Source: Psilocybe azurescens
Taxonomy: Eukaryota > Basidiomycota > Agaricomycetes > Agaricales > Agrocybaceae
Reading direction: 5' to 3'
Length of the DNA: 64,000 nt
NCBI GenBank assembly: GCA_023853785.1
Contig: JAJIRX010000521.1
Span: 52,232 to 116,231, forward strand
The first letter of the stretch is position 1, and each line of letters opens with the position of its first letter. A program made the translations under genes and the position numbers. The notes beneath the pieces were generated by a model. It was not told where the DNA came from, ran no database searches, and saw nothing but the letters and a program-made list of their open reading frames with translations. Of this stretch, positions 16,040 through 52,323 are shown piece by piece.

Positions 16040-19000
16040 CTATTCTTGCTTGACTATTGGGACTACAATTATATCCCAGAATGGTCTCATTGGTCTCATG
16101 GGCTTCCTTGCTCCGCCTCTGAGCCGCAATGTTTCTGATGTACTATTCGTAAAGGCATCATGAAGGTCTGATGAATCAGAAGGGAATTTGAAGAAGTCGT
16201 GCAGCTGCCCGTCGATATGAAGGGGTGAAGCTTGCTCGATGAAGGATAAGTCGACAAAAAGTTAGATATAAAAATTTTGAGGTAAGAAACACTTTTTTGA
16301 TCCCAGGAGGAAGGACAGTAAGCTGTTTTCCGCTGGAGACATTACTGAACTTAAGATGTCCTCGAGCTGGCAGGCATGCCTGGCCAAAGCACTGGGTTCG
16401 AACATCTACAAACGCTGGTTTGTAAATAGTATCTAACCCATGCGTCAAGATGCAATGAGTACCTGTAAATATATGTAGGTGATGTTCAACGTACCAATAC
16501 CCAGGTCAAGAACGTTGAAGGCGAATACCCACACAAATAACTCGTGCTCAGAGCTATTTGTTAATTTGAAACCCAACTTCAAGCTGGATTTGTCGGTATT
16601 CGCGACAGCGATCTTTATTATCCCATCCAGGTTCAAGTTGTCGCCATCAGGCAATGAGGCCGAGGTGTAGTGTCCATCAATGCTGCCGAGACGCCATGCC
16701 TCCAAGGTAATATCACGCACGCCCTTTTCGTTCTTCAAACTGGGAGACCGCCATAAATACCAAAGGAAATGCGAAGCATGCTCGAGAATACGGCCAATGA
16801 CGCTGACATCTGACGTTGCTACCGTGAGGAGGCGTGTCAATTCATCGCGATCCCTTATTTCAAAGACAGTGTTGCCATTTCGCACTAGCACGAGGACCTG
16901 ATGTGGATTATCTCTCCCTACGAAGCGGAGTGTGTCGGAATCCTGTCCTACGAGTTGCTCGACGACATCATGAGATAAAGGCGAATCATCCATGGCTATG
17001 GAGATACAGAGCTTGTGTCCCTGACCACGTTGTTCTCGGATATTTTGCAGAGCCTTAAATACTCTTTCATTTTGTCTATCCATGTCTGATTCTGTCGGTG
17101 TGACGTCACGGAGAGCGGTGGGTTTCTTCGTACTGAATATGAAGCGATCATTATGTTTCCCAAGACATAAAGGATTTTGTCTATAAACAATATCAGCCAA
17201 CTTCGTTCTCAAAGCGTGAGTGCATACAACAGACCCAGGTAGCTTTAAGCGTTGAATAATATCCCGATAAGTGCAGGTATATGTGCCACTTGCGAGTTTT
17301 ACCTCACGAAGAACGCGCATCAGATCTGAGGTAAATGCCCCGTGACCTGATGATTCTCTTGATTCTTCGAATTGTCGACATGAGGCTAGGAGGACATGCG
17401 AGGAAAAATTGGCGCTGGCGTAGCTATCTCCTTTGAATCCCCCAGCATGAGAGCAGTCTAGAATCAGGGTCTGCGGAAGTGGGAACTAGTTAGTAAGGCA
17501 TATCAGAAATGTTACAAGCCAACGAACAATATTGTTTCCCTTTACGGTGGCGACATGCGCAAGTAAATCATTAATAACGCTGGCCGAGATGACTCCGCCA
17601 TCAGGATAACCATATGGCACGATACATCCAGTATTTGAATTATCCAGCATGGCATGGCCAGCAAAGAAGATGATGATTGGATCATTGAACTTTATCTGCT
17701 CATTGTGTGCTAGCGACGAAATGTTTTCAATAATTGTTGCACGGGTAGCCCTTTCGTCGAGGAGAACGGATTGCCCGCTATCCGACATACCGAACGAGTC
17801 TGCGAGAAATGCTGAAAGGGAAAGAGCATCGCCAATGCATCCTGTGAGCAGAGGGAAGCCACCAGCATATTTATTAATGCCAATGAAAATAGACGAAAAA
17901 GGCGATATGGGACCTACATCGCAATGTTGAGCAAGCTTGCAATAGTAATCACATGTACAGATTTACTCACCAAAGCTATGGTAGAGTTTCCACCACGTAC
18001 GCGACTTCTTTGGGTATAAATTGTCCAAGAAAACCAGAGCGCAGAATCGTGAATGTAGCCAGGGTTTCGTGGAATAATCTCAAATGAATCCAATGCACCT
18101 GCCAAGGTGGCCGCGCGAAAATCTTTATCCTCCGGTTTATAACTTCTGTAGAACTCCTCTTGCAGGGCGGTAGTTAAAATGGTGCATGCATTGGGGAATT
18201 CGGTGATAGATCGTCTACTGATTTCTGAGGTATGACTGATATTCAATAGACGTCTTTGGTTTGAGATGATGAAGATGAAACACCAACCTGACGCAGACAC
18301 AGCAACGAGGGCATGGAAATGATGATCGTCCACTGCCTCCTGTTCTCCATGAGACTTCTCCAAGGCTCTTAGTGCCTCATCTGCACGAGAATAGGGATCG
18401 TCCTCGACCATTTTTTGTTTTTCCAGGGTCACTTTATCCCAACCAAGACCATTATCCCAAAACTTTGCGGCTGGCTCGTACTCTTTGTCTTCTGACCCCG
18501 TGGCAAAGACAGACTCGTGAATAAGCTGGCCGAGTAAAATTCGACGGGGACTCTGACGGCTAGGGGGCCTGAGCATACAGAAGTGTTTGTCAGCCTTGTC
18601 GTAGCCTGAATGAACCGACAAAGGCACTAACCAACGAATAATATCATCTCGGTCTTTATATGATAGTCGCGAGATCGGAAAATACTCGACGACCCTATAA
18701 AACATGTTCATGGAAGACATTGGAATGAGAGATTTGAAGGGGTGGCGGTGAGGTTCCATTTTTAGCCCTTTTTAATCGCTTCATACGACATCCAGCGCAG
18801 AGATGGGCCAAAATGATCAAGCTCCAGATTTGTAATGTTGCCACCACCGCTGTTGTAATACGTGGCTCGTATGAGAAACCACAGGACATGTTTATTGATA
18901 TTTTACTCACATATCTGAATGAGAACCGGCAAACCATACCTCTTTGACGTCCCCGAGAGGCGGGGTAATTCCTTCAGAGTCGGCTTCAGCATAGAGGGGA

Positions 19001-20168
19001 CCCTCGCCTCCATTTGCATATTCCGGCAGGAATTTAACTCGCAGCTCGTCGAGGGCTAGTGCGTGTCGGAAGGTACAAACATATCTCATGCCAGTAGTCG
19101 TCTCGGGAAGGTTCGGACCTCGGAAGATCCCAATGGCCGACACAGTGTCCCTAGTGGAGCACCGATTTAGCTTCATACTGGTTGAAGAACCGAGACTCAC
19201 CAAGCACCAACGAAATGAATTTTCACGCTTCGACGTGAAAGTGTTTTTTGAAACGTTTGCACAAGTCTTCAGACTCCTCTTTTTGTCACGCTTCTTTCCA
19301 ATGGTTTGGGTATACAGATCGTATGCGCTGTATAGCTATTTCTGAATAGAATTGTAGAATAGAACAGAATAGTTACTCACAATGCGATTTGTTCTTTGTT
19401 TCCCTTATGAAGAAGGCCAACCTGTATGCTCTAATGTTAGCGACGTTGAAGATAGAAATCATTGAAGTACTACGAACACCGCACCTTTTCTATCATCCCG
19501 GCAATGACGCGAACCTGATAAGCACCGCGAGAGAACCCTTGATGAAATGACTTCTGAAAAAGAGCAATAGACGCAGACGACACGAGCAAACTCACCGAAC
19601 AGAAAGATGCGGTCCCCAGGCCTATAGTTCTCTGACAGCCACTCGTAGGCACCGAGAACTTTGGCTTTGAAGTTTCTGTGACAGATATTAGAGGACCGAA
19701 AAGCTTGGAACAGGCCAAACATTCACGTTGCAAACAGTTTGTCGATGCCATGCCGAATAAATTGCTTCCATGCTTTATAAGAAAAGGAGTCTTTGACGTA
19801 TGTCCCAATCCCGCTGTTATAGTACGTCAACTGCTCATCGTTCTTGACGAGACGACTGTACAGCTCTACAACATTGGTGTTCTGGTGTTATACCATGTTA
19901 ATGCTGTACTCAATCGATTGGAGGCAAGTGATTGACCGTACATTTTTACCAAACTGATTCGCTGTTCCGTCAATGCAAACGACGAGGTTCCTACCACCGG
20001 GGAAGGCATACATTGGCATTCCTTCCCTGCTGTCGACCTGGTGTGTTGTTCCTCGGCTCCGTCGGTTGGAGCGTTGTCGACGTGAGAAGACATGTCCCGA
20101 TTATAACCGGGCTCCTCGTTGTGATCCAGCTCCTCCTCAGTAAATACAGAGTCACTTGAAACCAACAT
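16040..20168 (-). pseudogene. Module m1: DUF2235 hydrolase - caspase-like fusion, frames broken
   Basis: Read from 20168 downward. An acidic leader (MLVSSDSVFTEEELDHNEE) ends at CQC. The DUF2235 domain follows: RNLVVCIDGTANQFG, LTYYNSGIGTYVK, DRIFLFG, then GFSRGAYQVR (the GxSxG nucleophile) and RHALALDELRVKFLPEYANG. A helical linker leads through an intron near 17930 into a C14 caspase-like domain: IFIGINKYA, FNDPIIIFFAGHA (His kept) and LILDCSHAGG, where the expected Cys before His is Ser. The C-terminal region reads FVGRDNPHQVLVLVRNGNTV and ends near TLRLRGG. Single-base changes against other copies break the frame: at CQCMPS, in A runs near 19247 and 19280, near 18033, at GGCTAA near 18772 and near 16300. 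Tle1-like enzymes are phospholipases; a cell-death role is inference. Confidence 0.75.
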
Positions 20169-20628
20169 GCGAGAGAGATGGTAGAGAGAGGAAAGCAGGT
20201 GATGCTTGCCGACGAGGGCTCATAACCTTGCATGGCATCCGAACAAGATTAGCGAATATCGCACGGATGACATGGCGTGGGATTCTGCATTCTGGGAATA
20301 CTTGATACAAACATCTTATGCCTCTGGACCAAGCAAGATGTTGTTCTTGATTTCCATGCATTAGAAGCTTCATTGCTATATGTTAGTGGCGAACCTATCT
20401 GGAACGGCTTTGAAGGCTCGTATAAGCATATGACGTGAATGTTACATCTTGAATAAACTCGCCAAAAGGTGGTTAGGGTCTCTATTAGCCTCAATGCTGA
20501 CGGGAGGCACACTGTGATATTTAATCAGTTTAGAGAGCACCACCACTGGAGACAACAGTGTAAATTATAGGGGTTTAGGTCTCTTCAAGGCAGAAATGAC
20601 GCAATGGAGTACCACTGGAAAGGACAAG
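20169..20628. repeat. Upstream flank of module m1, shared with m2
   Basis: Similar to 28055-28525. It holds the presumed m1 promoter and the junction to the ATG1 fragment; shared runs include GACAAGATTAG and CTGGACCAAGCAAGATGTTG (CTGGACCGAGC in the other copy). No separate gene seen. Confidence 0.7.
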
Positions 20629-21162
20629 CTTCTTGATGTAGTTCGTAAGGTCCCCGCCGGCGCAGTATTCCATGATCAGGTATATGTGCTTCTCTGTGAG
20701 CTGCAGGGGGTAAGGGTACGGGTGAGAATGAAGACGAGATGGATTTCCACTGCCACTGTGGAAGTGGAGACGAAAAAGAAGAGAAGAGACACGCACAACG
20801 ATATCGATGAGCTTTGTGATATGCCGATGGGCGAGCGACTTGACGATCTGGATCTCGCTCTGCAGGTTCTTGAAGAGCTTCGTTGTCAGGTTGTCGCGCT
20901 CGACCTGCGTGATGGTGACCGTCTGCCTGGTGTTCTGCAATCATCACAATGCTATGGAGTAGAGTAAATATCAGAATCCCAGCACCTGCAGAGACCAAGG
21001 GAGATCCTGCACACGCACCTCGTGTTAGCCCTTGTAAATGGTGGCGAAGCTGCCCTTGCCGATGTCCCCCACGATGACATACGGCCGTGCATCATCCTCG
21101 AACTCGCCCGCCGTCGTCCGCGCGGGAGCCTGTCGCTTGAAAGTCTGTACTGCATTGGACAT
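20629..21162 (-). pseudogene. ATG1 5' fragment, copy B
   Basis: The minus strand repeats ATG1 exon 1, intron 1, exon 2, intron 2 and the first part of exon 3, then loses similarity right after TNYIKK near 20629. The start ATG is at 21160-21162. Exon 1 has a nonsense change: KGYHE became KG-stop-HE (TAC to TAA). Exon 2 reads TVTITQVERDN where ATG1 has [11 protein letters not shown], so the ATP-binding Lys is Thr. No DFG or HRD part exists. Introns are kept, so this arose by DNA duplication, not by reverse transcription. It sits head to head with GST copy B as in the parent locus. Confidence 0.9.
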
Positions 21163-21498
21163 CTTCTCGTCCAGATGAGATTGCGGTGTATCATTGATAG
21201 TTTAGTGTAGTGGATGGATAGAGTTCAGTGTCAGTGGGTAAGCAGAGAAATGAAGAACATGCACATCCGGATAAGGTTAGGGACAAGCCATAAATGTCAT
21301 AGTTGCACGAATTATCAGCTGACAAAGCATTTTGCATCGCTCTCAGACAGTCAGACCCCTTGTTGGACTGGAATTGCCCACTTTGCGCTTTCGCTCCCAC
21401 TGCACTGTGCCTCCGCGTCGGCATACGTATATAATTATAATCATGCACGCGCACTTTGCCCGGTCATGTGTGTCTCCACATAGAAGTATAAATTATAC

Positions 21499-21505
21499 TA
21501 TAAAA
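21499..21505 (+). promoter_or_regulatory. TATA box of GST copy B
   Basis: TATAAAA about 55 bp before the ATG, preceded by a second TATAAAT at 21487, part of a short TATA-containing expansion not in copies A or C. Confidence 0.55.
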
Positions 21506-21557
21506 TAACCCGCTCCGAGTCCTTCACACCAGCACCCTTACCTTTACACTGCGGACC

Positions 21558-22464
21558 ATGCAGCCCCAGCAGCCCCAGCCCAAATACACAGTCATCGGAA
21601 CGCCCTTCTCGACCTTCACCCGCACCATCACGCTCGCGCTGCACTACAAGACCATCCCGCACACCCAGGTGCCTGTCTTCCCGCACTCGCCCGGCGCGGA
21701 CGCCGCGCACCCCTTTGGCATTATCCCCACCCTCCTCATCCAGAATCACAGCGACGCAGACGCAGGGGACACTCACGCAGAGAATGCGCACACGATAAAA
21801 CTCCGCGAGACACAGGCCATCATCCGGTACATCGACCGCATCGCGCCCGAGCCCACCCTGCATTTCCACCCTGCACCTGCACAACCTGGGGACGCGGATT
21901 CAGGGATGATTGAGGAGAAGATGTGGGAGTATGTAAGCTTCGTGTCGTCATACGGTATGTCTTGTCTTGTCTCCCTTCGAGTCGCTTTTCGTCGGGCTCA
22001 TTTCTTGCCCTCTTTCTCTTCCATGCCCTGCCCATCCACCCACACAACAGGCTTCCCAACAATCGAACACGGCCTCGTCAAACCACGCCTCAAACACCTC
22101 GCCTCGGGCCTCTCCGCCGCCGCCATCACGCCCCTCCTCACGCCCAACCTCCCCGCGCTCGCCAACTTCCTCGACATCACCGCGCAGTGCCTCCCCTCCT
22201 CCCCTTCCCTCCCCTCCCCCTCCCTTCCTATTCGCCCCGCACCCGACGTACGCCGACCTCCACCTCTTCCCCATCCTCGCCGACCTGCGCCCCACGCCCG
22301 AGTGGGCCGCCCTCCTCGCGCACCCGCTAGGCCCGAGGTTGGCGCGGTGGATGGAGAATATGGACGCGCTGGAGTGTGTGCAAAGGACGCGGGAGGGGAC
22401 GGTGAGTGCGGGGGTCGGGCTGGAGGTTGGTGGTGGTGGTGGTGGTGTGCCAGGTGGCGCGTGA
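21558..22464 (+). pseudogene. Glutathione S-transferase-like gene, copy B (least damaged)
   Basis: The best preserved GST copy. Exon 1 (21558-21954) is open throughout: YTVIGTPFSTFTRTITLAL, FGIIPTLLI, LRETQAIIRYIDRIAPEPTL and IEEKMWEYVSFVSSYG. The GTATGT..CAG intron ends at 22050, and exon 2 opens FPTIEHGLVKPRLKHLASGL. One problem remains: in the pyrimidine-rich run near 22215-22230 this copy has one more C than copy A, so the frame leaves PFLFAPHPTYADLHLFPILA. The correct frame resumes to LARWMENMDALECVQRTREG and ends GVPGGA at 22462-22464. If that C is a sequencing error the protein would be intact and about 255 residues, normal for a GST. Neighbours: ATG1 fragment B upstream, duplicated tail downstream. 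Confidence 0.78.
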
Positions 22465-23065
22465 GGTATGGATTCTAGAAGGAAGGATGTACAGTATACT
22501 CGTGGCCCCAAAAGTAATCACAGGCAATAAAATCCCTGATATCTCTGAACATGGCCACAATAAAATTAGGGTCTCTTAGCTAGATCTGGATCATTTTTAC
22601 AGATCTTTTGAACAAGGATATTAATTCCTGAAAAGGGTCCCTCCTTCCGTTTATGGTAGATTTTTCAAACAGATGAGAAACCTATCTCAACGAGGAGATG
22701 TCTATCAAGGCTGAAAATTTATCACAATATAAACAATCATTTCATTCTACTATATAAACCTGAGCTCTGAAGTCCTTCGATCTCTGACAATTACTGAATT
22801 AAATTGGATTTAAATATTACATATTTGCTGAAATCCAATGGCAGCATCCCAAAGGACCCCTGGCGTAAAGAAGGACCACTAAGTAAACCTAAGCATCATC
22901 GTAGTTTAGATAAAAACAAGTTAGGTCATGAAATTTCGGCCTAACATGAAACATTCTCGAGCTGTTATAAACTGGAAAACTACGATGAAAACTGAGAGCG
23001 TCTTTTCTCTTTTGCACCAGGAAAGCTCAAACAAAACATCTGCAGTTTACGCTATACAACACAAA
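22465..23065. repeat. Non-coding duplicate tail (B copy)
   Basis: Counterpart of 10913-11515, with small deletions such as loss of about 10 bp at the AAACAATACG run. No coding potential seen. Confidence 0.85.
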
Positions 23066-23528: not shown

Positions 23529-23897
23529 TGCGCACTTCCCACAACATCCCAATCCCAATCTCCGCTCTAGGGCACCTCTGAGATCTGAGGCTCTGATCTG
23601 TACAAGCGCCTATAATCTCCTTATCACCATACTAATATGGCAGACTGCAAAAATTAAACCGATCAAGTCTTATAAGTTCATCAGCCGCCTCAGCCGCCGA
23701 TATGCTAATTTGTATTTTTCCGACATGCCATTTACATATGTAAAAGCTGGCGTACACATTTCTCCTTCAATGTGACCGGGTCCATGAAGCGGGTGTCGTC
23801 AATCAGAACAGTTTCAGAAAGAAACGAAACAGGCAAAAATCATTTACTACATACTTGTACATCAACATAGAGATTCTCAATAACAATTGCTGTACGA
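23529..23897. repeat. Downstream flank of module m2, shared with m1
   Basis: Counterpart of 15601-16039. No gene seen. Confidence 0.8.
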
Positions 23898-26800
23898 CTA
23901 CTCTTGCTTGACTATTCGGACTACAATTGTATTCCAGAATTGTCGACGAATTGAGGGATTAAAGGGCTTCGCCCCTCCGCCTCTGAGCCGTAATGTTTCT
24001 GATGTACTATTCATAATGGCGTCGTGAAGGTCAGATGAATCAGACGGGAATTTTGAGAAGTTATGCAGCTGGCCATCGATATGCAAGGGTGAAGCTTGCT
24101 CGATAAAGGATAAGTCAACAAAAAGTCAGATATAAAAATTTTGAGGTAAGAAACACTTGTTTCGATCCCAGGAGGAAGGACGGTAAGCTGTTCACCGCTG
24201 GAGACATTGCTGAACTTAAGATGTCCTCCAGCTGGAAGGCATGCCTGGCCCGAGTACCCGTTTTGAACATTCACAAACGCTGGTTTGTAGAGGATATCTG
24301 ACCCATGCGTCAAGATGTAATCAGTACCCGTAAACATATGTAGGTGATGTTCGCCTCACCAATACCCAGGTCAAGAATGTCGAAGGCAAATACCCACACA
24401 AAAAAACTCGTGCTCAGAGCTATTTGTTAATTTGAAACCCAACTTCAAGCTGGATTCAACAGTATTTGCAACGTCAGAGAGCCATATGGTGCGATAATGA
24501 TTCAAGTTGTCGCCAACAGGCGAAGAGGCGGAGGTGTAGCATCCATCGACGCTGCCGAGACGCCATGCCTCCAAGGTAATATCACGCACGTTCATTTCGT
24601 TCTTCAAACTGGGAGCCTGCCATAAATGCCAAAGGAAATGTGAAGCATGCTCGAGAATACGGCCAATGACGCTGACATCCGACGTTGCTACCGTGAGGAG
24701 GCGTGTCAATTCATCGTCATCACTTATTTCAAAGACAGTGTTGCCATTTCGCACTAGCACGAGGACCTGATGCGGGTTATCCCTCCCTACGAAGCGGAGT
24801 GTGTCGGAGTCCTGTCCTACGAGTCGCTTGACGACATCATGAGATAAAGGTGAGTCATCAATGGCTATGGAAATACAGAGCTTGTGTTCCTGACCGCGAT
24901 GCTCTCGGATGTCTTGCAGAGCCTTAAAGAGTCTTGTATTTCTGATTCGTCCATCCACGTCTGATTCTGTCGGTGTGACGTCACGGAGAGCAGTGGGTTT
25001 CTCCATACTGAATAAGAAGCGATCATAATGTTTCCCTTGACATAAAGGATGTTGACTATAAACAATATCAGCCAACTTCGTTCTCAAAGCGTGAGTGCAT
25101 ACAACAGACCCAGGTAGCTTTAAGCGTTGAATAATATCCCGATAAGTGCAGGTATATGTGCCACTTGCGAGTTTTACCTCACGAAGAACGCGCATCAGAT
25201 CTGAGGTAAATACCCCGTGACCTGATAATTCCGTTGATTCTTCGAATTGTTGACATGAAGCTAGGAGGACATGTGAGCAAAATTGGCGCTGGCGTAGCTA
25301 TCTTCTTTGAATCCCCCTGCATGAGAGCAGTCTAGAATCAGGGTCTGCGGAAGTGGGAACTAGTTAGTAAAGCATATCAGAAATGTTGCGAGCCAACGAA
25401 CAATATTGTTTCCCTTTACGGTGGCGACATGCGCAAGTAAATCATTGATAACGCTGGCCGAGATGGATCGGCCACCAACAAACCAATCATATGGTATGAT
25501 AAATCCAGTATTTGAATCGTGCGGGATGTAATGGCCGGAATGGCCAGCAAAGAAGATGATGATTGGATCATTGAACTTTATCTCCTCGTTGTCTGCTAGC
25601 GACGAAATGTGTTGAATAATTGTTGCATGGGTGGCCCTTTCGTCGAGAAGAACGGATAGCCCGCTATCCGGTATACCGAAAGAGTCTGCGAGAAATGCTG
25701 AGAGGGAAAGAGCATCCTCAACGCATCCTCCGAGCGAAGGTAAGCGATCATCTTTGTACGTATTAATGCCAATGCAAATAAACGAAATACGCGGCATAGG
25801 ACCTACATCGCAATGTTGAGCAAGCTTGCATTAGTAATCATATGTACAGATATACTCACCAAAGCAATCGTAGAATTTCCACCATGTACGCGACTCCTTT
25901 GGGTATAAATTGTCCAAGACAGACCAGAGCGTAGAATTGTAAATGTAGTCACGGTTCCGTGGAATAATCTCAAATGAATTCAATGCATCTGCCAAGGCGG
26001 CCACGCGAAAATCTGTATCCTGCGGTTTATAACTTCTGTAGAACTCTTCCAAGGCGGTAATTAAAATAGCGCGCGCATCGGGGAATTCGGTGATAGACCG
26101 TCTACTGATTTCTACGGTATAACTGATATTCAATAGACGTCTTTGGTTTGAGATGATAAAACACCTACCTGATGCAGACACAGCAACGAGGGCATGGAAA
26201 TGATGGTCGTCCACTGTCTCCTGTTTTCCATGAGAGTTCTTCAAGGCTCTTAGTGCTTCGTCTGCACGAGAATAGGGATCGCCCTCGACCATTCTTTGCT
26301 TTTCCAGGGACACTTTATCCCAACCAAGACCATTATCCCAAAACTTTGCGGCTGGCTCGTACTTTTCGTCTTCTGACCCCGTGGCAAAGACAGACTCGTG
26401 AATAAGCTGGCCGAGTAAAATTCGACGGGGACTCTGACGGCTAGGGGCCTGAATATACAAAAGTGTTTGTCAGCTTTGTCGTAGCCTGAACGAACCGACA
26501 AAGGCACTAACCAACGAATAATATCATCTCGGCCTTTATATGATAGTCGCGAAATCGGAAAATACTCGACGACCCTATAAAACATGTTCATAGAAGACAT
26601 TGGAGTGAGAGATTTGAAGGGGTGGCGGTGAGGTTCCATTTTTAGCCCTTTTTTATCGCTTCATACGACATCCAGCGCAAAGATGGGCCAAAATGATCAA
26701 GCTCCAGATTTGTAACGTTGCCACCACCTCTGTTGTAATACATGGCTCGTATGAGAAACCACGGGACATGTTTATTGATATTTTACTCACATGTCTGAAT

Positions 26801-28054
26801 GAGATCCGGCAAACCATACCTCTTTGACGTCCCCGAGAGGTGCGGTAGTTCCTTCGGAGCCGTCTTCAGCATAGAGGGGACCCTCGCCTCCATTTGCATA
26901 TTCCGGCAGAAATTTGACTCGCAGCTCGTCGAGGGCTAGTGCGTGGCGAAAGGTACAAACATATCTCATGCCAGTAGTCGTCTCGGGAAGGTTCGGACCT
27001 CGGAAGACCCCAATGGCCGACACTGTGTCCCTAGTAGAGCACCGATTCAACTTCGTACTATTTGAAGAACCGAGACTCACCAAGCACCAATGAAGTGAAC
27101 TTTCACGTTTCGACGTGAAAGTGTTTTTTTGAAACGTGCGCACATGTTTTCGGACTCCTCCCTGTCCTGCTTCGTTCCAATGGTTTGGGTATACAAATCA
27201 TATGCGCTGTATAGCTATTTCTGAATAGAATTACACAACAGAACAGAATGTATACTCACAACGCTATTTGTTCTTTGTTTCCCTTATGAAGAAGGCCAAC
27301 CTGTATGCTCTAATGTTAGCGACGTTAAAGATAGAATTCATTGGAGCGCTACAAATACCGCACCTTTTCTATCATTCCGGCAATGACGCGAACTTGATAA
27401 GCACCACGAGAGAACCCTTAACGAAATGACGTTTGAAAAAGAGCAATAGACGCAGATGACATGAGCATACTCACCGAACAGAAAGATGCGGTCCCCAGGC
27501 TTATAGTTCTCTGAAAGCCACTCGTATGCACCGTGGACTTTGGCCTTGAAGTTTCTGTGACAAATATCATGAACTGACAAGATTGGAACAGGCAAACATT
27601 CACGTTGCAAATGCTTGGTCTATGCCGTGTCGAATTGATTGTTTCCATGCTTCATAAGAAAGCCAGGACTCGGAGTCTTTGACGTATGTCCCAATCCCGC
27701 TGTTGTAGTACGTCAACTGCTCATCGCCCTTGACGAGACGACTGTACAGCTCTACAACATTGGTGTTCTGGTATTATACCACGTTAAGGCTGTACTCGAT
27801 CAATTGGAGGCAAGTGATTGAACGTACGTTTTTACCAAATTGATTCGCTGTTCCGTCAATGCAAACAATGAGGTTCCTACCACCGGGGAAGGCATACATT
27901 GGCATTCCTTCCCTGCTGTCGACTTGGTGAGTTGTTCCTCGGCTCCGTCGGTTGGAGTGTTGTCGACGTGAGAAGACATGTCCCGATTATAACCAGGTTC
28001 CTCATTGTGATCCAGCTCCTCCTCAGTAAATACAGAGTCAGTTGAAGCCGACAT
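23898..28054 (-). pseudogene. Module m2: DUF2235 hydrolase - caspase-like fusion
   Basis: Close duplicate of m1 and the least damaged of the pair. The leader starts MSASTDSVFTEEELDHNEE at 28054. DUF2235 parts are in frame across introns: NFKAKVHGAYEWLSENY, DRIFLFG then GFSRGAYQVR (near 27405), and FKKTLSRRNVKVHFIGAW, where m1 is broken. The caspase part has FNDPIIIFFAGHSGHYIP (His codon 25540-25542) and LILDCSHAGG, again Ser for the expected Cys (25324-25326). The C-terminal region ends near TLRLRGGG (23976-23993). It shares with m1 the one-base loss at CQCMPS (near 27890), an in-frame TAA after EAIKKG (near 26648) and a one-base loss before the last 60 residues (near 24113). An ATG in the DUF2235 frame just before the first lesion (MPMYAFPGG) could give a shorter start. 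Confidence 0.77.
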
Positions 28055-28525
28055 GCGAGAGAGATGGTAGAGAGAGGAAAGCAGGTATTGCTTGTCGACG
28101 AAGGCTCACAAGTAACCTTTCATTGCATTCGGACAAGATTAGTGAATATCACACGGGTGACATGACGTGGGATTGCGCTTGCATTCTGTTTGATGGCCGC
28201 CGGGGCATGGAATTCGTGGAATACTTGATATAAACATCTTATGCCTCTGGACCGAGCAAGATGTTGTTCTTGATTTTCATGCATCAGAAGCTTCATTGCT
28301 ATATGTTAGTGGCGAAGTTATCTGGAACGACTTTGAAGGCCCATATAAGCATACGATAAACTCGCCAAAAGGTGATTAGGGCCTCTATTAGCCTCAATGC
28401 TGACTGGAGTCACACTGTGATATTTAGTAATTAGTTTAGAAAGCACCACCACTGGAGACAACAGTGCAAATTGTAGGGGTTTAGGTCTCTTCAAGGCATA
28501 AATGACGCAATGAAGTATCACTGGA
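28055..28525. repeat. Upstream flank of module m2, shared with m1
   Basis: Counterpart of 20169-20628, with a local insertion near 28185-28215 and a deletion near 28345. It holds the presumed m2 promoter. No separate gene seen. Confidence 0.65.
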
Positions 28526-30030: not shown

Positions 30031-30337
30031 CTTCTCGTCCAGATGAGATTGCGGTGTATCATCGATAGTGTAGTGTAGTGGATGGATAGAGTTCAGTGTC
30101 AGTGGGTAAGCAGAGAAATGAAGAACATGCACATCCGGATAAGGTTAGGGACAAGTCATAGTTGAACGAATTATCAGCTGACAAAGCATTTTGCAATGCT
30201 CCCAGACCCCTTGTTGGACTGGAATTGCCCGCTTTGTGCTTTCGCTCCCACTGCACTGTGCCTCCGCGTTGGCATACGTCTGTAATTATAGTCATGCACG
30301 AGCACTTTGCTCAGTCATGTGTATCTGCAAATACAAG

Positions 30338-30344
30338 TATAAAA
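30338..30344 (+). promoter_or_regulatory. TATA box of GST copy C
   Basis: TATAAAA in the conserved position about 55 bp before the mutated start codon. Confidence 0.55.
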
Positions 30345-30396
30345 TAACCCACTCCGAGTCCTTCACACCAGCACCCTTACCTTTACACTGCGGACC

Positions 30397-38449: not shown

Positions 38450-41400
38450 ATGTCGGATATATACACTACCCTAGCTGAGGAGATGGACACCAGCAGTGAT
38501 CAGCCCACGTCTTCTCACCTTGAAGATGTTTCCGCGGACAGAGCCGAGGCACAACGAGTCACCGCGAGGACAGCAGAAAGATTACTCTCTTGCCAGTGCT
38601 ATATGACTTCCCCCAATGGTAGGAACCTCGTCATTTGCATCGATGGCACTGCGAATCAATTCGGTACAAATGTAAGTTTAATAAGTTGCGTCCGGTTGAC
38701 TGCTTACAGTACTGACATGGGTGCAACGCCAGAATACCAATGTCGTAGAGCTGTACAGTCGTCTCGTCAAGAGCGATGAGCAGTTGACGTACTACAACAG
38801 CGGAATTGGGACATACGTCAAAGACTCCGAGTCTTGGTATTCTTATGAAGCATGGAAACAATCAATTCGACACGGCATAGACCAAGCATTTGCAACGTGA
38901 ATGTTTGCCTGTTCCAATCTTGTCAGATCTAACATTTGTGACAGAAACTTCAAGGCTAAGGTCCTCAGTGCCTACGAGTGGCTGTCAGAGAACTATAGAC
39001 CTGGGGACCGCATTTTCCTGTTCGGTGAGTGTGCTCGTGTCGTCTGCGTCTATTGGTCTTGTTCAAAAGTCATTTCGTCAAGGGTTCTCTCGCGGTGCTT
39101 ATCAAGTTCGCGTCATTGCCGGAATGATAGAAAAGGTGCGGTGTTCGTAGCGCTCCGATGATTTCTATTTTCAACGTTGCTAACATTAGAGCATACAGGT
39201 TGGCCTTCTTCATAAGGGAAACAAAGAACAAATCGCATTGTGAGTAACCATTCTGTCTATTCTGCAACTCTATTCAGAAATAGCTATACAGTGCGTATGA
39301 TCTGTATATTCAAACCATTGGAACAAAACATGGCAAAAAGATTCCGAAGACTTGTGCACACATTTCAAAGATACACTTTCACGTCGAAACGTGAGAGTTC
39401 ACTTCGTTGGTGCTTGGTGAGTCACGTTTCTTCTCAGTAATTAATCGGGGTGGAAATGGATCGGTGCACTACTAGGGACACAGTGTCGGCCATTGGCGTC
39501 GTCCGTGGTCCGAACCTCCCCGTTACTACTACTGGAATGAAGCACGTTTGTATATTCCGGCACGCACTAGCCCTCGACGAGCTACGAGTCAAATTCCTAC
39601 CAGAATATGCAAATGGAGGCGAGGGTCCCAGCTATGTTGAAGCCGGCTCTGAAGAAACCACCCCTCTTTTCGGGGACGTCAAAGAGGTGTGGTTTGCCGG
39701 GTCTCATTCGGATATGTGCGTAAAATGTCAATGAGAGCTATTTTGTGGTTTCTCATACAAGCCATGTGTTACAACAGCGGCGGTGGCAATGTCGCAAATC
39801 TAAAGGCTGATCAGTTTGGCCCATCTCTACGCTGGATGTCGTATGAAGCTGTAGAACCTCCGTTCTGTCTCAGTACGGAAAGCGGAAGAAAGACGGCACC
39901 CTCGGACTAGGCATTAGGCGCTCCAAGTCCAATGAGCCGACTGCAGGCGAAACAAAGATCGACAAAATACCTACATTGCGTCATTCCGCACCTACTTGCA
40001 GCCTAATGCAGGCACCATATCCGCGCACCCATACGACACCTAAAAACCAAGAGAATGAAACCATTAAAAGGCGGATCAACAGCAAAATAAACCAATTAAC
40101 CAGAACCCGACGTGCCTCCGACGATCTAAACACCAAAAGCTTAGAATAAAACCAAGCACATAAAATTTAACGTACGAAAACATATTTAAGTAACCTACTT
40201 GTAATTGTTACGGTACTTGATTTTTCCCCCAAAAGAAATATCATTTCTATTCACACACGTACCGCTCAACCCTGCAAACGTTTCATACAAAGAAATCTCT
40301 ATATATTCGCTGCCCGCGTATCGTTCTCGTCGCCCAAATTCGTACGTATCGTTAAACTAAAGAACCCGTTCGGAATTCGCTCACCTACCTCGTCGTCGCT
40401 CGCTCGCTGTCTCTCGCCCTCGTTACACACCTGCCGCTTTTCGCTTCCACCTTTCGTACACGTTATCCTTCCGGGACACACCTACAGTCGTCCTACACTC
40501 AGAAACCCCCGTTTGCTGGAGAAATTCCCAGCAGACAAAATAGAAGAGATTACCGTCCGCCCCGGACAGTAAACAGCTCTTTTCAAAGCCATCAAGCAAG
40601 GGCTTAAAATGGAACCCCACCGAACGCCCTGGAAACCTCTCATTCCGAAGTCTTCCATGAACTGGTTTTATAGCCTCATCGAATACCTTCCGATCTCGCG
40701 ACTGTCGTACAATGGACCAGATGATTCCATTCGTTGGTGGGTGACTGTTTCAGTTCTTTCAGGATATGATGAGTCTGATAATTGCTTTGTATACTCAGGC
40801 CCCCTAACCGTCACAGTCCTCGTCTTATACTACCAGGCCAACTAATTCACGACTCTGTCTTTGCTGAAGAGTTGAAAAGGACTGGATATGAGCCGGCGGC
40901 ATTGTTTCGATATAAAGGTCATGGTTGGGATGAAGAGGCCCTGAAAAAACAAAATCGTTGAGGATGATCCCTACTCTCACGCAGGCAAAACGTTACAGTC
41001 TATAAAGGAGTCTAACGACAACAAGATGCCAGTGTCCAATGAAGATTACGATGCCCTCACTGCACTGTCCTCAACAGGTTGGTCTTTCAGCATTTCAAAA
41101 CGAAGACGTTTACTGAATATCAGTCATATTTTAGCAATTGGACAACGGTCTATCACTGAGTTCCCCGGCTCAAGCACCATTCTTGCAACCGCTCTGGAAG
41201 CTGAGTTCAACAAAAGCGTTGCAGCTGGGGATAAAAGCTTCGTCATAGATCTGGAATATGCACTGAATTCATTTTCAACTATTCCGCGGCAGGTCTATAA
41301 TTCTACTGTCTGGTCCGTCTTAGACAAGCTATACGTAAATGAGCCGCCTAAGTGGCACAAGTTCCATGATTGCTTTGGTGAGTGTGTCCGTGCAAGTGCT

Positions 41401-43322
41401 TACTACGCACAAGCTTGCTCAGCATATTGGCGTAGGTCCCATTCGGGAGGTTCTGCTCAACCCTGTTTCTGCTATTTGCATTGGCATCGATACGTACCAT
41501 GCCAAAGACATGCCTTCGCTCAGGGGACCCGTTGCCGATGCTCTTAGCGTTTCAGCATTTCTCACAGATTCTCTCGGTAGTCCGAAAAACCGGATAGCCA
41601 TCCTCCTCAACAAAATGGCTACCCGTGCAGCAATCATTCAACGCATTTGGTCTCTGGCAAGCAATGAACAGATAAAGTTCAACGATCCAATCGTCATCTC
41701 CTTTTCTGGCAATTGCTATATGAACTCAAAGACCGCATGTATCCTGCCATATGACTACCCTGATGCCGAACTTATCACCGCCGACGTCATAAACGATCTG
41801 CTTGCGTATGTGGCCTCGGTAAAAGGAAACAATATTGTTCGTCGCCTAGAAATATTTCTGGAATATTTTACTGATTAGTTCCTCTTTCATAGACTTTGAT
41901 TCTTGACTGCTGTTATGCTGGTTCATTTGGACGAGATAACTATGCCAACGCCAACTTCTCCTCGCATGTCCTCCTGGCTGCATGTGGAAAATCTGAAATG
42001 GCACGTGAAAGGGATGGTCACGGTTTGTTTACGTCAAATTTGATTCGCGTTCTTCGGGAGGTCGAACCTGCAGACGGCGGATATACCTGCACCTATCGGA
42101 ATATCATACAACGTTTACCACCACTTGGACCGTCTGTTATATGCATTTATTCTTTGTGTGCGAAGTTGTCTGACATTTTTCACAGTCAAACTCCTTCGTG
42201 TGAAGGGAAACACGACGATCGTATTGTATTCAGTACGAAGAAACCCACCGGTGATCCAGCTCTGGATGACATCACACTCGCAAAACAAAATACGGTTCTG
42301 ACAGATATCCGAGCATGCCGTGATCAAGGCAACAAGCTCAATATTTCTATAGCCAGGGACGACTCACCTTTATCTTGTGATGTCGTCAGACAACTCGTAG
42401 AACAGGACTCCGACACACTCCGTTTCGTAGGGAGAGATAATCCACATCAGGTCCTCGTGCTAGTGCGAAATGGCAACACTGTCTTTGAAATAAGTGATCG
42501 CGATGAATTGACACGCCTCCTCATGGTAGCAACGTCGGACGTCAGCGTAATTGGCCGTATTCTCGAGCATGCTTCACATTTCCTTTGGCATTTATGGAGG
42601 TCTCCTACTTTGGAGAGTATTAAAAATAAAGCTCATGTCGTGCGTGATATTACCTTGGAGGCATGGCGTCTCAGCAGCATTGATGGACGCTACACCTCCG
42701 CCTCGTCGCCTGTTGGCGATAACTTGAACCAGGACGGTGTCATAAAGATCTCTGTCGCGGATGCCGAAGAACCCAGTTTGAAACTCGGTTTTAGATTGAC
42801 AAATCGCTCTCGTTACAATTTATTTATTAGGGCATTTACTTTCCACACTGTCGACCTGAGCATTGGTGAGTCGAACATCACTTGTACATATTTCCATGCA
42901 CTCATCTTGTCTTGCATTATGGGTCAGATACCGTCTACAAACCAGCATTTGTGAATGGCGACCAGGCCTCGGGCGACGCATGCCTGCCAGCTGGAGGACA
43001 TCTTAAGTTCAGTAATGTTTCCACCGGCGAACAGCTTACCATCCTTCCTCCTGGAATTGAAAGAAGTGTTTCCTATCTCAAAATCTTTATATCTAACTTT
43101 TTAGTCGACTTATCCTTCATCGAGCAAGTTTCACCGTTACATGTCGACGGCCTCCGGCATGATTATTTGAAATTCCCTTCTGATTCATCTGACCTTCATG
43201 ATGGCTTTACGACTACATCAGGAACATTGCGGCTCAGAGGCGGAGCGCAGCAACAGATTTCCTCACCTAGTCGGATCTGGAATACAATTGTAGTCCCAAT
43301 AGTCAAGAGGAGGGAAGAGTAG
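38450..43322 (+). pseudogene. Module m4: DUF2235 - caspase-like fusion, split by a solo LTR
   Basis: The leader MSDIYTTLAEEMDTSSDQPT ends in SCQCY. DUF2235 follows: GRNLVICIDGTANQFG, LTYYNSGIGTYVK, DRIFLFG, then GFSRGAYQVR (near 39085) and GPNLPVTTTGMK. The gene is cut after SYEA at 39849 by a 736-bp LTR and resumes at 40586 with IKQGLKMEPHR. An intron after WHKFHDCFG leads into the caspase part: AICIGIDTYHAKDMPSLRGP, then NDPIVISFSGNC, where His is Asn (41711-41713), and LILDCCYAGSFG, where the Cys is kept but the next His is Tyr. The C-terminal region is the best preserved of all: FVGRDNPHQVLVLVRNGNTV through FLVDLSFIEQVSPLHVDGL to TLRLRGGAQQ (43227-43244), ending IVVPIVKRREE. One-base changes in A runs near 39336 and 40955 break the frame. 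Confidence 0.78.
39850..40585. mobile_element. Solo LTR of a retrotransposon
   Basis: A 736-bp block begins TGTAGAACCTCC and ends CTCTTTTCA, the TG..CA form of long terminal repeats. It is flanked by the 4-bp direct repeat AAGC (39846-39849 and 40586-40589). Removing it restores the GAA GCC ATC AAG reading seen uninterrupted in m1, m2 and m5. TCTATATATTC near 40300 may be its promoter. No gag or pol sequence is present, so it is a solo LTR left by recombination. Confidence 0.8.
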
Positions 43323-47096: not shown

Positions 47097-49186
47097 TCTT
47101 TCGACACGAGGTGATGCAGGAGAGATAATAGTGGCTAGATTCTGGCAGGCGATTGTTAGGCTTTATATTAGATCTGACATTCATACCACATCATGGATCA
47201 CAAATGGGCAGTAGACGGAGATTATGATGTCAAAAACCAAGTATTTACTTGGTGTATAGACTGAAACGGACTGCTATTTCCAGATTTCAAAACTGTGTAT
47301 GGAGCTCCTCCCATATGATCGATGGGCGGTCTTTATGCGCAAGGCAGTTCTTTGACATCCCCCTGCGATCTGTTGCAGGTTGTGGCCAAGGCAAATATAG
47401 CCATGTCGCCTCGTTTCTGTAAAAGAAGTCGTATCAACACAACACATCAAGCCACAAACACATGCTGTAGAAGGAGATGTGTCAGCATCCGGAATATCTT
47501 CCATAGTAAATATCAATATACTAAGTCATAAGCAGCCTTAAAATCGATTTACACCACTTGTCAAGGTTATATCGTGGGCTCGTCGAAATATAAGTGGTGG
47601 TCTCCGATTATTACTATTTGCCTTTAGCTACGGCGTGCTTTGATGGAGAATGTGTCAAACCTGTAGAGGCTAATATCTCAAAAATTGAAGAAGCATGAAG
47701 GATATGACCTAGGCATATCGTATCCCTCGAATGCAACGAATGCATGTCAGTTGAGTGCAATAAGTTAACCCTCTTGACCGTAAATCAGTCAATGATGAGA
47801 AGTCAACTTCAAACGTTGTGCATCAAACAATATGAATCATGCGTAAATATGGCATCCCCAGAAAGGTCGACATATTTGAACATGAGTGACGACACCTCTA
47901 AGTGTCAGCAACAGAGGTTGCATGCTCAGCTGGATATCATTGTAGGTATCGCCTCATGACATCCCAAACTCTTAAAGAGCGCTTGGGCCAGAGTACCTGC
48001 CTCTCAACCATTTCTCTGCCCCGCCTTTCCGCCACTGAATAACAGATTCGATTGCCTCTTCTCAACTGAGGTGAAGCCGTCTCATACCCAGATATTTTTT
48101 ATAATATTTCCAAGAAACACGCTCCCCACCGGACAGAACAGCGACGTGAAGACTAGGGCATTCAGATTAAATTACAGAAGCGCTGGAGTATCCCAGATGG
48201 AGATCTTGGAGCAATGAGCACTACAGGTGGGATGGGGCATTTAATTTCAAGAGCGACCCAGACAGCTCACATGGCGGAAAGGGAAGGTGAACTTGAATTT
48301 AAAGGCTGGCGTCTGAGCATGAAGTGTTGTTGAAAACAAGTTGAAATAGGTTGGAAAAAGGGTTCAAGCTTTCCCTTCCACCGGTCCATCATAGATACAT
48401 ACAGCCTTGTCGACGGTTAGCATGATTCAGAGACATAATGCCCTTGAGAGATCAGCGGCACAGATAACTCGTATTCATTGCTTTTTCAGGTTCTCGGGTG
48501 CAACTTTGGTGTGCATTGGGGTGTAGAGTGGGTGCAGAGCCAGCTGCTTGCAATTGCATCCGTGTGAATTCGGCCGCGATGCCATAGGATGCCTGCCGTG
48601 CACATATGGCAAGCATGTTCCCACTTCTTTTGTCCGTCGTCAATGACGTCTTGCCACACTCCGTCAACGTGCGGACCTCTTGCGGACAACTGTATTGCAG
48701 TATACTGCAGGACTTCATATCAATTATTCTGAGGCCATGAGTCTGTTGGTCTGAATTGGCTTAACATCGTATGTTCTCCCTGCTATCAGAGTATAGCACC
48801 AGGATACATGGGTACTGACATGTGCTTAATCTGTATTAATGTTCATCAGCTATTTTCTCTCGATTAGCCAAAAGAAGGACATATAAACCAAGTATACGCA
48901 CCTTTCCAACCTGCCACCAGCCTTCCTTTCGCTTTGTTTGTATGCCTTGCTGATGCGGACTCAATAATAAAGGTCACCAGGACCATCGCTTTTGGTATAG
49001 TTCTTTTTGTTATGAGATGCTGCACCAGCCGTCTGAGGTGAATGCTCAAGGACGCATGCGTGATACCACCTCAGCAATCTTTCCCCTCACGTTTTGTGCA
49101 TGCCTTGTTCATGAGTAAACGTTAACGGTTATTTAACAGAGTCTAGCGAGAACAAATTGCTTAGCTCTCTCCCCTGCCTCAACTAC
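47097..49186. other. Gene-poor stretch upstream of m5
   Basis: About 2.1 kb with no supported gene. Short open frames on both strands (for example 47274-47516 minus and 48452-48718 minus) have no motifs and no exon partners. The last few hundred bases should hold the m5 promoter. Confidence 0.45.
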
Positions 49187-52100
49187 ATGCTGGCTCCGTC
49201 GCCATTCATCTCTACTACTGCTGAGAAGATGCACTTTGACCGGCTAGATGAGGAGACATTTCCTAGTGTTAACAACACATCCGTGGACCCTTCTAGAGCT
49301 GAACGACATCAAGAGATGTTTCCCAGTCTGAACGACGTGTCTTTAAGCCCTTCTGAAGACAAAGGACAGAAAAAAGAGCTACAGCACACCATGAAGACAG
49401 AAGAAGCGGACCATCCCTGCCAGTGCATATCTCCTCTAGGCAGAAACCTCGTCGTCTGTATTGACGGAACTTCGAATCAATTTGGTAAACAAGTGAGTTT
49501 ATTTATTTACCTCAATTCGATGATATTGTGCCGACGCTATATGTCACCAGAATACCAACATTGTAGAGCTGTATAGTCGTCTGGTGAAGAGCGATGACCA
49601 GCTAACATATTATAATAGCGGGATTGGAACATATGTCAAAGACGCAACGTCTTTCAGGGCATTGAGGCAGTTTTTCCACCATAGTGTCGATAAAGCTTTC
49701 GCAATGTAATTTCATTATCTCTTCCACTATTTTCTGAGGGTTCTGAATTCCTTTAACAGAAACTTCAAAACCAAAGTCCTCCGCGCCTACAGTTGGTTGT
49801 CAGAGAATTATAGACCTGGAGACCGTATCTTTCTCTTTGGTGAATTGACTTGCCTTGGCCGGATTTACAATGCTTTCTTAAAATGCATTCTGCTTAAGGA
49901 TTCTCCCGTGGTGCTTATCAGGTTCGCGTCATTGCTGGAATGATACATAAAGTATGTAATCCAGATGCGCCCATTAGCTTTTAGCATCATCTTCGTTAAT
50001 CGTGGACTGTGTAGGTCGGCCTTCTTCACAAGGGAAACAACGAACAAATTGCGTTGTGAGTACAATGGCATTGCTTATTGTGATTTGACCCAATAGTTTA
50101 TACAGTGCGTATGATCTGTATACGCAAACAATTTCAGCAAAAAAACGACCAGACAGAACAAAGGACAGAAGGAGTCAAAAAAGGATAGAGAGCAGAAGGA
50201 GTCCGAGGAACTATGCAGACGTTTTAAACAAACACTTTCGCGTCGAAACGTTCGAGTCCATTTCGTTGGTTCGTGGTCAGTCGCATGTCTTCTCCCGCCG
50301 GACAGCACGGCAATGAACCTATTACCCATAACAGGGATACTGTGTCGGCCATTGGGGTCATCCGAGGTCCTAACCTTCCCGAGACGACTACTGGTATGAG
50401 GCACGTATGTGCCTTTTCGGCATGCGCTTGCCCTCGACGAGCTACGCGTCAAATTTCTGCCGGAATATGCAAACGGAGGCGCAGGTCCGACTGCCGCGGT
50501 TGACTTAAACAACTCTGATGGATCTATGCGGCCTCTTGGAGACGTCAAAGAGGTATGGTTTGCGGGATCTCACTCGGACATGTGAGTAAAATAGTAACAA
50601 TTATTTTGTGAGTTTCTCAAGTGTGACACGCACTTCCACAGAGGCGGGGGTAACATTGCCAATCTGACACTTGACCGTTTCGGACCGTCTCTGCGCTGGA
50701 TGTCATACGAAGCGATAAAACAAGGGTTGAAAATGGAACCTCACCGAAGTCCCTGGGGACTTTCACTCCAAACACATCCATGAATTGGTTTTATAGACTT
50801 ATTGAATACCTGCCAATCTCTCGACTCTCGTATACTGGCCCAGATGAAATCATTAGGTGGTGGGTGATTATTTGAATGCTCTGATGGTATAAAATGGGTC
50901 TGATGGTTTTTTATACGGTCAGGCCCCCTAGCCGACAAAGTCCTCATCGTATATTACCAGGCCAACTTATCCATGAGTCTGTCTTTGACTGGATGTTGAA
51001 ATTTGCAGAGTACAGGCCAACCGCACTGTTTTGGGGGACAATCTGGTTTGGGATGAACGGAACCTAAGAGACCAAGCTATTGTCGAAGACGATCCCTATG
51101 CTCGAGCTGACCGTGCCCTACAAGCCCTCGACGAATCCAATAAAGGGAAGAACATAATGTCTCACGAACTTTACGATGCCCTTGCTGCATTGTCGTCGAC
51201 GTGTTAGTACCTTATTACTTCGAACTAAAGACGTTTTCTGATAGTAAATTATATCCTAGATATTGGTAGACAGTCTATCACCGAATTTTCTGGGTCGGGT
51301 CCCATTTTGCTCACTGCTTTGGAGGATAAGTGCCGCAAATGTGGTGCAGAAAATGACGACAGCAGCCTTGAAGTAATCACGACCTTGGTAAATGCGTTGG
51401 ATTCATTTGAGATTATACCTCAAAGAGCCAGTACAACTCTGATCCAGCAATCTGGTCCATTTTGGACAAAGTATGTCAAACAGAGTTGTTGAAATGGCGC
51501 AAGTTTCATGATCGTTACGGTGAGTTATTCGTATGTGCACATGTACAATGTCAAAGCTTACATAATACTCCATCTTAGGTCCAATTCCACTTCCTTCTGC
51601 TCTCATCATTGGCATTGATGCATACACAAGTAAGGATATACTACCGCGCAAAGGATGTGTTAACAGTGCTCGCGAAATTGCATCGCTTCTTATGGACACC
51701 ATGGCTCTACCATATAGCGAAATATCCATGCTCCTTAACGAAAGGGCTACCCATGCAAGGATCGTTCAATCCATTTTGTCCATGGAAACAAACGATCGGA
51801 TAGCATTTAATGATCCAATTATCATCTTCTTTTCTGGTTGCTCCTTGCGCAACGACTCAGGTATTGTGTTTATTGTGCCATATGATTACCCTGATAGCCA
51901 GGCCATCGCGGCGAGCGTCATCGATGATTTACTTACTCGGGTCGCTGCCGCAAAGGGGGAAAATATTGTTCGTCTCTCTTTGCTTACTTTTAGGTGTTCA
52001 TCACTGACCAGTTCCCACTCTTGCAGACCTTGATTCTGGACTGCCCTTATTCTGCAAGGTTTAAAGGAGATGCCTATACAAGCACCGATATACCTTCACA

Positions 52101-52323
52101 AAATCTCCTATCCGACTTCAGAAAACACCAGGAAACAAAAACTATCTACGGCCACCGTCATTTTGTTGAAATTTTGAAGGACATCCTTCGTAATTTTGAG
52201 TTGGTACGTGAGTATGGCGCTGCCTACTACACCCCACGGTTTCTTGTTCCGCCGCCTTCCAGAGAAGTTCAACGACTGCCAGACCCTATTGCGGAGTCAC
52301 CGTCTAGGGAAGCTGGATTTTAA
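49187..52323 (+). pseudogene. Module m5: DUF2235 - caspase-like fusion without the C-terminal region
   Basis: The most diverged copy. Leader MLAPSPFISTTAEKMHFDRL ends in PCQC. DUF2235 reads GRNLVVCIDGTSNQFG, LTYYNSGIGTYVK, DRIFLFG, GFSRGAYQVR (near 49905), GPNLPETTTGMRHVC, GDVKEVWFAGSHSD and EAIKQGLKMEPHR. The helical linker shows WDERNLRDQAIVEDDPY. The caspase part has ALIIGIDAYTSKD, FNDPIIIFFSGCS, where the expected His is Cys (51839-51841), and LILDCPYSARF, where the expected Cys is Pro (52045-52047). Sequence similarity to the other modules ends soon after, and the frame stops at 52321-52323, so the C-terminal region with LRLRGG is absent. One-base changes break the frame near 50140 (A run), 50414 (T run) and 50758. 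Both catalytic residues are lost, so protease activity is very unlikely. Confidence 0.72.

Follow-up and report, generated by a model that had tools for sequence, protein, structure and literature searches.

Dyad-less caspase-like domains in Psilocybe azurescens, in part fused to a Tle1-like putative lipase, form an array of possible pseudo-caspases

Introduction

Does an array of caspase-like domains without an intact His-Cys dyad represent pseudo-caspases whose fold was kept for another use, or a family in decay? The question is raised by a 64,000-nucleotide stretch of the Psilocybe azurescens genome (assembly GCA_023853785.1, 70.4 Mb in 937 contigs), namely, positions 52232 to 116231 of contig JAJIRX010000521.1 (here C446), hereafter the window, in which an earlier note had recognized five such domains, m1 to m5, and had named both answers. 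Pseudo-caspases themselves are known: the available part of PMC6426788 describes them in bacteria, protists, and animals, including bacterial pseudo-orthocaspases and TbMC4 of T. brucei, and that of PMC5756287 describes pseudo-orthocaspases of cyanobacteria. No fungal pseudo-caspase is named in the titles or abstract beginnings that our searches of the open-license literature brought up, and a search there found no paper on caspases and Psilocybe cyanescens.

New here are a fungal pseudo-caspase clade, the loss of its dyad by more than one route, and its fusion to a Tle1-like lipase domain. Our preferred reading, to which we assign a probability of roughly 0.43, is that protease activity was lost throughout the subfamily, leaving an array of pseudo-caspases whose fold may have been kept in some copies as a noncutting module that controls a lipase. 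A fungal clade without a complete dyad, one form of which makes up the end of a lipase, offers a test case for a noncutting caspase fold and bears on how the mushroom lipases that resemble NOD-like receptors (NLRs) are switched on.

Results

All five caspase-like domains were recovered. Each is encoded by two exons, A with the His half and B with the Cys half, separated just 5' of TLILDC by a short intron (57 bases in m1 and m2). Domains m1 (exon A, 17528 to 17913; exon B, 16493 to 17470) and m2 (25402 to 25802; 24374 to 25344) lie on the minus strand, while m3 (34441 to 34785; 34842 to 35792), m4 (41459 to 41836; 41893 to 42867), and m5 (both exons within 51593 to 52320) lie on the plus strand. 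Against the Pfam C14 profile (cutoff, 21.4 bits), spliced m1, m4, and m5 score 50.9, 43.4, and 23.3 bits, and the first caspase half of m2 alone scores 25.6 bits. On its own, m3 gives no Pfam C14 match up to an E value of 1; it is 67% identical to m1. By their caspase p20 fold and sequence profile, m1 to m5 belong to the C14 fold family of the metacaspase type.

As the earlier note had claimed, none of the five has an intact dyad. At the catalytic His and Cys columns, m1 reads H/S (His codon at 17656 to 17654, in AGH; Ser codon at 17452 to 17450, in DCSHAG), m2 also reads H/S (25542 to 25540, in AGH; 25326 to 25324), m3 reads H/D (34657 to 34659, in TGH; 34860 to 34862), m4 reads N/C (41711 to 41713; 41911 to 41913), and m5 reads C/P (51839 to 51841; 52045 to 52047). 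Every dyad is thus altered, but the copies do not all differ, as had been thought: m1 and m2 share one state, leaving four states rather than five, and the expected His is replaced only in m4 and m5 and kept in m1 to m3. The nucleophile column had been picked correctly, since the mutated Ala in the crystal structure of yeast Yca1 C276A aligns with the third letter of D-C-S/D/C/P. The loss of the His that follows this Cys in m4, which the earlier note had listed, had to be rejected as a sign of inactivation because the same position varies (H, N, or Y) in intact paralogues.

The same holds beyond the window. The alignment contained 11 subfamily rows, namely, m1 to m5, the further copies mX, m0, and mY (all H/S), the alleles m3b and m4b, and the P. 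cyanescens protein P0005, together with 12 canonical C14 rows chosen from the same genome. Allele m3b, on contig C788, has Asn at the nucleophile site where m3 has Asp (H/N), m4b reads N/C like m4, and P0005 reads I/C. The dyad is complete in 0 of the 11 subfamily rows versus all 12 intact paralogues; His is kept in 7/11 rows, and Ser is the commonest replacement of Cys. With the alleles m2b, m2c, m5b, and m5c and the P. cyanescens proteins P0001 and P0002 added, none of 17 subfamily sequences (14 loci of the genome including alleles plus three proteins, hence not 17 independent genes) has a complete dyad. Outside the subfamily, both residues are present in 17 of 20 C14 loci, some of which are near-copies of each other; for two of the other three, L014 and L016, the reading covered a single half. 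Four additional loci (L070, L072, L078, and L082) also have both residues. The array therefore fits the pseudo-metacaspase kind, which combines a caspase fold, no dyad, and intact paralogues alongside. The last of the 20 loci, L021 (C189:65833-66159), is a C14-like gene outside the subfamily in which the dyad is also absent (FSGY, LLLDSP).

What the earlier note missed is that m1, m2, m4, and m5 are each preceded, on their own strand, by DUF2235 (Tle1-like) exons. These exons contain the motifs GFSRGA, DTV, and GSHSD, which we take to supply the Ser, Asp, and His of a lipase. The m1 gene region (16043 to 20219, minus strand; ends approximate) comprises an N terminus, DUF2235 exons, a linker, the pseudo-caspase, and a C-terminal domain that begins within exon B; m2 (23901 to 27986, minus strand; ends approximate) is a tandem copy of this unit, and m4 (38506 to 43319, plus strand; ends approximate) has the same order of parts. 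In m5 (49115 to 52320, plus strand; start approximate), DUF2235 exons and linker are followed by a truncated pseudo-caspase that stops after EAGF, and the C-terminal domain is missing.

The counterpart of m1 is P0001 (1,153 amino acids; CVT25 tags), which carries the m1 caspase sequence and has DUF2235 at residues 60 to 335, a linker, C14 at 596 to 774, and the C-terminal domain. Its DUF2235 match (E value, 1.7e-73) covers positions 1 to 285 of the 287 positions of the type VI secretion system Tle1-like profile; with the motifs also present, P0001 is a putative lipase. In P0005, only the end of the DUF2235 profile was matched. The m3 gene region (32856 to 36246, plus strand) is the counterpart of P0002 (979 amino acids; 99% identical to m3 across both caspase exons) and pairs the pseudo-caspase and C-terminal domain with a different N-terminal part. 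Neither m3 nor P0002 gave a DUF2235 match, and no Pfam family was found anywhere in P0002, including this part (about residues 1 to 390 of P0002; 32856 to 34010 in the window), which appears to be a different partner joined to the same kind of pseudo-caspase. No Pfam match to NACHT or NB-ARC was found in P0001 or P0002 (E values up to 0.1) or in P0005 (up to 0.01), so that P0001, which may in part act as NLRs do, is not itself one.

In the scored genome matches, whose DUF2235 and C14 lists are lower bounds, the two domains lie close together only in the array and its copies; the exception is contig C779, which has them on opposite strands at a distance of about 6 kb. Three protein searches were made, each word limited and scoring at most 7,996 candidates, and among the matches listed no subfamily member came from outside P. 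cyanescens. From the search with whole P0001 we took the best 120 of 207 matching proteins, and 122 proteins were then compared. Within these 122, the caspase part of P0001 matches only P0001, P0002, and P0005 (all P. cyanescens) and P0003 and P0004, in which DUF2235 is absent. The lipase end plus linker (residues 395 to 590) has 44 other matches, 17 of them over at least 140 residues; the linker proper (450 to 590) has 9 other matches at E values up to 0.01, with only that to P0005 being strong. The linker matches include NACHT, TPR, and WD40 proteins, and because the lipase end and linker match such proteins, the pseudo-caspase occupies the place of sensor repeats or a nucleoside triphosphatase (NTPase). 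The C-terminal domain is shared with the DUF2235 protein P0047 (31% identity; E value, 2e-10) and weakly with P0063 (2.5e-5) and P0092 (8e-4), all without a caspase match.

Phylogenetically, the subfamily forms one clade versus the 12 intact rows with a support of 100/100, whether the dyad columns are included or excluded. In both trees m4 branches first; P0005 is unplaced when the dyad columns are included and joins m1, m2, and mX (91/86) without them. Since no single change from H/C can account for both H/S and N/C or I/C, there were either two or more routes of dyad loss or one loss followed by further change. Neither grouping of the rows was rejected by the approximately unbiased test (Cys-keeping rows held together, p-AU of 0.062; Cys-losing rows held together, p-AU of 0.128).

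Selection was gauged from pairwise ratios of nonsynonymous to synonymous divergence (dN/dS), calculated by the Nei-Gojobori method with our own script and 1,000 codon resamplings. The comparison, which the earlier note had suggested, gave a divided answer. Among the more distant copies, the caspase-domain ratios are 0.36 (0.23 to 0.55) for m1-m3, 0.46 (0.30 to 0.71) for m1-m4, and 0.47 (0.31 to 0.69) for m3-m4; five pairs of intact paralogues, three of which share genes, gave 0.21, 0.19, 0.29, 0.26, and 0.23. The copies m1, m2, and mX are all H/S and hence diverged after the loss of the dyad. Their C-terminal domains yield 0.62 (0.38 to 1.01) for m1-mX, 0.44 (0.27 to 0.76) for m1-m2, and 0.63 (0.40 to 0.98) for mX-m2, and the intervals for their caspase exons include 1 (see below). 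Constraint after the loss is therefore likely for the C-terminal domain and no more than possible for the caspase part itself. The allele pairs m3-m3b (0.60) and m5-m5b (0.35) are too close to tell, with intervals that include 1. Among m1, m2, and mX, synonymous divergence (dS) is 0.04 to 0.07 in exon B versus 0.14 to 0.21 in exon A, a value so low in exon B that it suggests gene conversion.

The Asp of LILDC, a motif that the earlier note had described as conserved, is found in all 11 subfamily rows. We take this residue and a second Asp to be the acids of the S1 pocket, equivalent to D95 and D211 of TbMCA2. The other acid is present in 7 of the 8 rows that have a letter there (Ser in m5); the stretch with this Asp is deleted from exon A of m3 and is likewise missing in m3b and P0005. 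Further conserved residues include the Cys of DC (11/11 subfamily rows, 11/12 intact paralogues), the Cys of LLAAC (10/11 and 12/12), and the His of SHVLL (9/11 and 11/12). The Cys residues of TACIVPY (8/10) and YTCTYR (10/10) are conserved in the subfamily and are not general among intact paralogues. Modeling, also suggested earlier, still gives a metacaspase for the m1-type domain, and in the AlphaFold prediction for P0001 (mean predicted local distance difference test score [pLDDT], 43.6) confidence is confined to part of the caspase domain. The prediction for m4 exon B (mean pLDDT, 33.7) has no confident part.

Discussion

Our preferred reading, a subfamily-wide loss of cutting with the fold retained in some copies, builds on the dyad loss, the modeled fold, the architecture, the array, and the constraint over the longer comparisons; from there we infer lipase activity, control of the lipase, and present selection on the caspase part. 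The standard copy (m1, P0001) has its pseudo-caspase and C-terminal domain behind the Tle1-like lipase and linker. Like the repeat sensors of NLR-like proteins, the C-terminal part would bind a ligand or partner and thereby hold or release the lipase effector; the control part would here contain a caspase fold that has lost its cutting activity.

Several points weigh against this reading. P0001 is no plain orthologue of m1, because one DUF2235 exon (TKQDREESENMC) resembles that of m2, and its model is unsure past residue 720, the region that holds the nucleophile site. The caspase exons of the close copies give dN/dS ratios of 0.65 (0.37 to 1.15) for m1-mX, 0.92 (0.56 to 1.67) for m1-m2, and 1.15 (0.67 to 2.11) for mX-m2. 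The m1-m3 ratio of 0.36 reflects constraint after the loss only if Cys was lost once, ahead of the m1/m3 split, which the tree without the dyad columns does not favor and the topology test does not reject (p-AU, 0.128). For m4-m4b the ratio is 1.43 (0.46 to 5.23) over both exons; positive selection in exon A of this pair (10 replacement and 0 silent changes) was considered and dismissed, since such a count has a probability of 0.763^10 = 0.067. Finally, in this assembly every DUF2235-caspase gene of the window is interrupted at some point. The two frame shifts of m1 recur elsewhere: the one-base shift after SYEAIKKG is found in m2 as well, and m1, m4, and m5 have one before FKxTLSRRN, where m4 and m4b share theirs (FKDTLSRRN). 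In m2 exon B, a further one-base shift behind the nucleophile site is due to the absence of a T from a T5 run.

Some of these shifts may lie in the assembly. The alleles m2b and m2c differ by 0 silent changes and 1 replacement over three regions and also in the length of a G run and of the T run just mentioned, which is typical of long-read error. The SYEAIKKG shift, which lies behind the DUF2235 catalytic part, is also present in m2b and m2c, and since shifts are common to m1, m2, m2b, and m2c and to m4 and m4b, real decay in this strain is possible. Decay of the DUF2235-caspase unit is seen in m4, in m5, in the broken copies m0 (C446, at 41 kb, beyond the window) and mY (C445), and perhaps in others. 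The interpretation of the earlier note is partly supported: the dyad is lost, the signs of constraint are mixed, and some copies are decaying.

A close rival, and a real possibility, is that the array, or at least its caspase part, became useless once protease activity was gone, so that dyad residues were lost at random, conversion keeps some copies alike, and the low ratios among m1, m3, and m4 largely carry over from the period when the protease was still intact. The caspase ratios of m1, m2, and mX, the conversion suggested by exon B, the frame shifts in m1, m2, m4, and m5, the broken m0 and mY, the truncation of m5, and an insertion in m4 all favor relaxed decay. It is harder to reconcile with the three m1/m3/m4 ratios and the C-terminal ratios of m1-m2 and mX-m2, whose intervals exclude 1, with the exon B frames of m1, m3, and m4, open over 346, 350, and 353 codons, and with P0001 and P0002, which are open at full length in an independent P. 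cyanescens assembly. Alternatively, the pseudo-caspases might have a damping effect by binding the intact C14 proteases or the substrates of these, comparable to the action of c-FLIP on caspase-8. Intact paralogues in the same genome and pocket acids that are mostly kept without the dyad agree with such a dominant-negative role, which we nevertheless find unlikely: it leaves the DUF2235 fusion unexplained, and the available part of PMC12914765 describes metacaspases as monomeric, which makes a dimer block less likely.

Quite unlikely, in our estimate, is that the pseudo-caspase, as a protease domain with most of its pocket acids but no ability to cut, serves as an integrated decoy where an NLR-like lipase would otherwise have its WD40 or TPR sensor, so that microbial or nonself factors that bind caspases or metacaspases would switch on a membrane lipase. 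The mixed dyad losses would then stem from selection against cutting, and turnover in immunity or allorecognition, not decay, would account for the tandem array, the strongly diverged haplotypes, and the high dN/dS of close copies. Cutting by altered chemistry, with H/S copies using Ser or the neighboring Cys of DC, could draw on the frequent His and Ser and on the invariant DC cysteine of the subfamily, but we hold it to be very improbable, because that cysteine is equally common in intact paralogues and thus no mark of the subfamily, His is absent in m4, m5, and P0005, and Ser is the commonest residue at this site in bacterial pseudo-orthocaspases, which the accessible text of PMC6426788 presumes inactive. 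Near-identical copies in the assembly do show short indel differences, and yet a sequencing artifact has practically no probability as the source of the dyad changes. These are substitutions, as had been argued earlier, they occur in alleles too, and the Ser of m1 and the Asp of m3 recur in P0001 and P0002 from the second assembly, so that we rejected homopolymer error.

Bacterial pseudo-orthocaspases and TbMC4, as far as the consulted part of that literature goes, share with the present copies a p20 fold without dyad, a common Ser at the Cys site, and often a place beside intact paralogues. Pseudo-orthocaspases mostly replace both residues (by Tyr/Ser), according to the same material, whereas here one is usually kept (H/S, H/D, H/N, N/C, and I/C), except in m5 (C/P); those earlier forms are bacterial or protozoan, whereas the present copies are fungal, and P0001 and P0005 are fused to DUF2235. 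The closest intact C14 genes of the same genome, at the C550 and C730 loci (L007 and L072), resemble the array in their caspase exons and carry a C-terminal domain that is related to the one found there, but differ in their intact dyad and in having no DUF2235 match nearby.

On the lipase side, DUF2235 is a lipid-acting toxin domain that was in fungi before the ascomycete/basidiomycete split, according to the available part of PMC3482391. Agaricomycete DUF2235 proteins with WD40 (P0007 to P0021), TPR (P0006, P0038, P0044, and P0069), or NACHT (P0023) have the same Tle1-like N terminus, with matching lipase end and a more weakly matching linker, but repeats or an NTPase take the C-terminal place that the pseudo-caspase and C-terminal domain have here. 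Fungal NLRs use N-terminal lipases as effectors (available parts of PMC12881547 and PMC10197012); one of them, PLP-1, combines patatin, NB-ARC, and TPR (PMC12881547, in the same part). DUF2235 is absent from the text of both articles. NLRs of the PLP-1 type resemble P0001 in their N-terminal lipase, C-terminal control part, and variable gene family; they differ in that the lipase of P0001 is Tle1-like rather than patatin, no NTPase was found, a pseudo-caspase replaces TPR, and the corresponding function would be a presumed one.

Other features of the window

The m1 and m2 units belong to a 5.3-kb tandem duplication with 88.5% identity (15885 to 21128 and 23743 to 28986), relative to which m3, m4, and m5 are inverted. 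The copy mX (L032 and L058; C787:9932-11297) lies 7.9 kb from m2b, a spacing like that from m1 to m2, but both exon A and the C-terminal domain differ from those of m1 with a dS of about 0.2; mX represents either a haplotype that has diverged strongly or a copy that was replaced. The insertion in m4 (736 bases; 39850 to 40585, plus strand) lies behind the DUF2235 catalytic part, is flanked by a 4-base target repeat, and is absent from the C788 allele; it starts with TG and may be a candidate solo long terminal repeat.

A kinase-domain fragment (20578 to 20940, minus strand; PF00069, E value of 1.8e-9), presumably ATG1-like, has copies at about 28530 to 28986 (minus strand) and at 9094 to 9579, inside duplicated stretches. 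Interleaved with the caspase units are three copies of a glutathione S-transferase-like gene (9579 to 10883, 21128 to 22429, and 29996 to 31313), which are 82 to 85% identical; the match to PF13417 refers to the first copy, the one tested.

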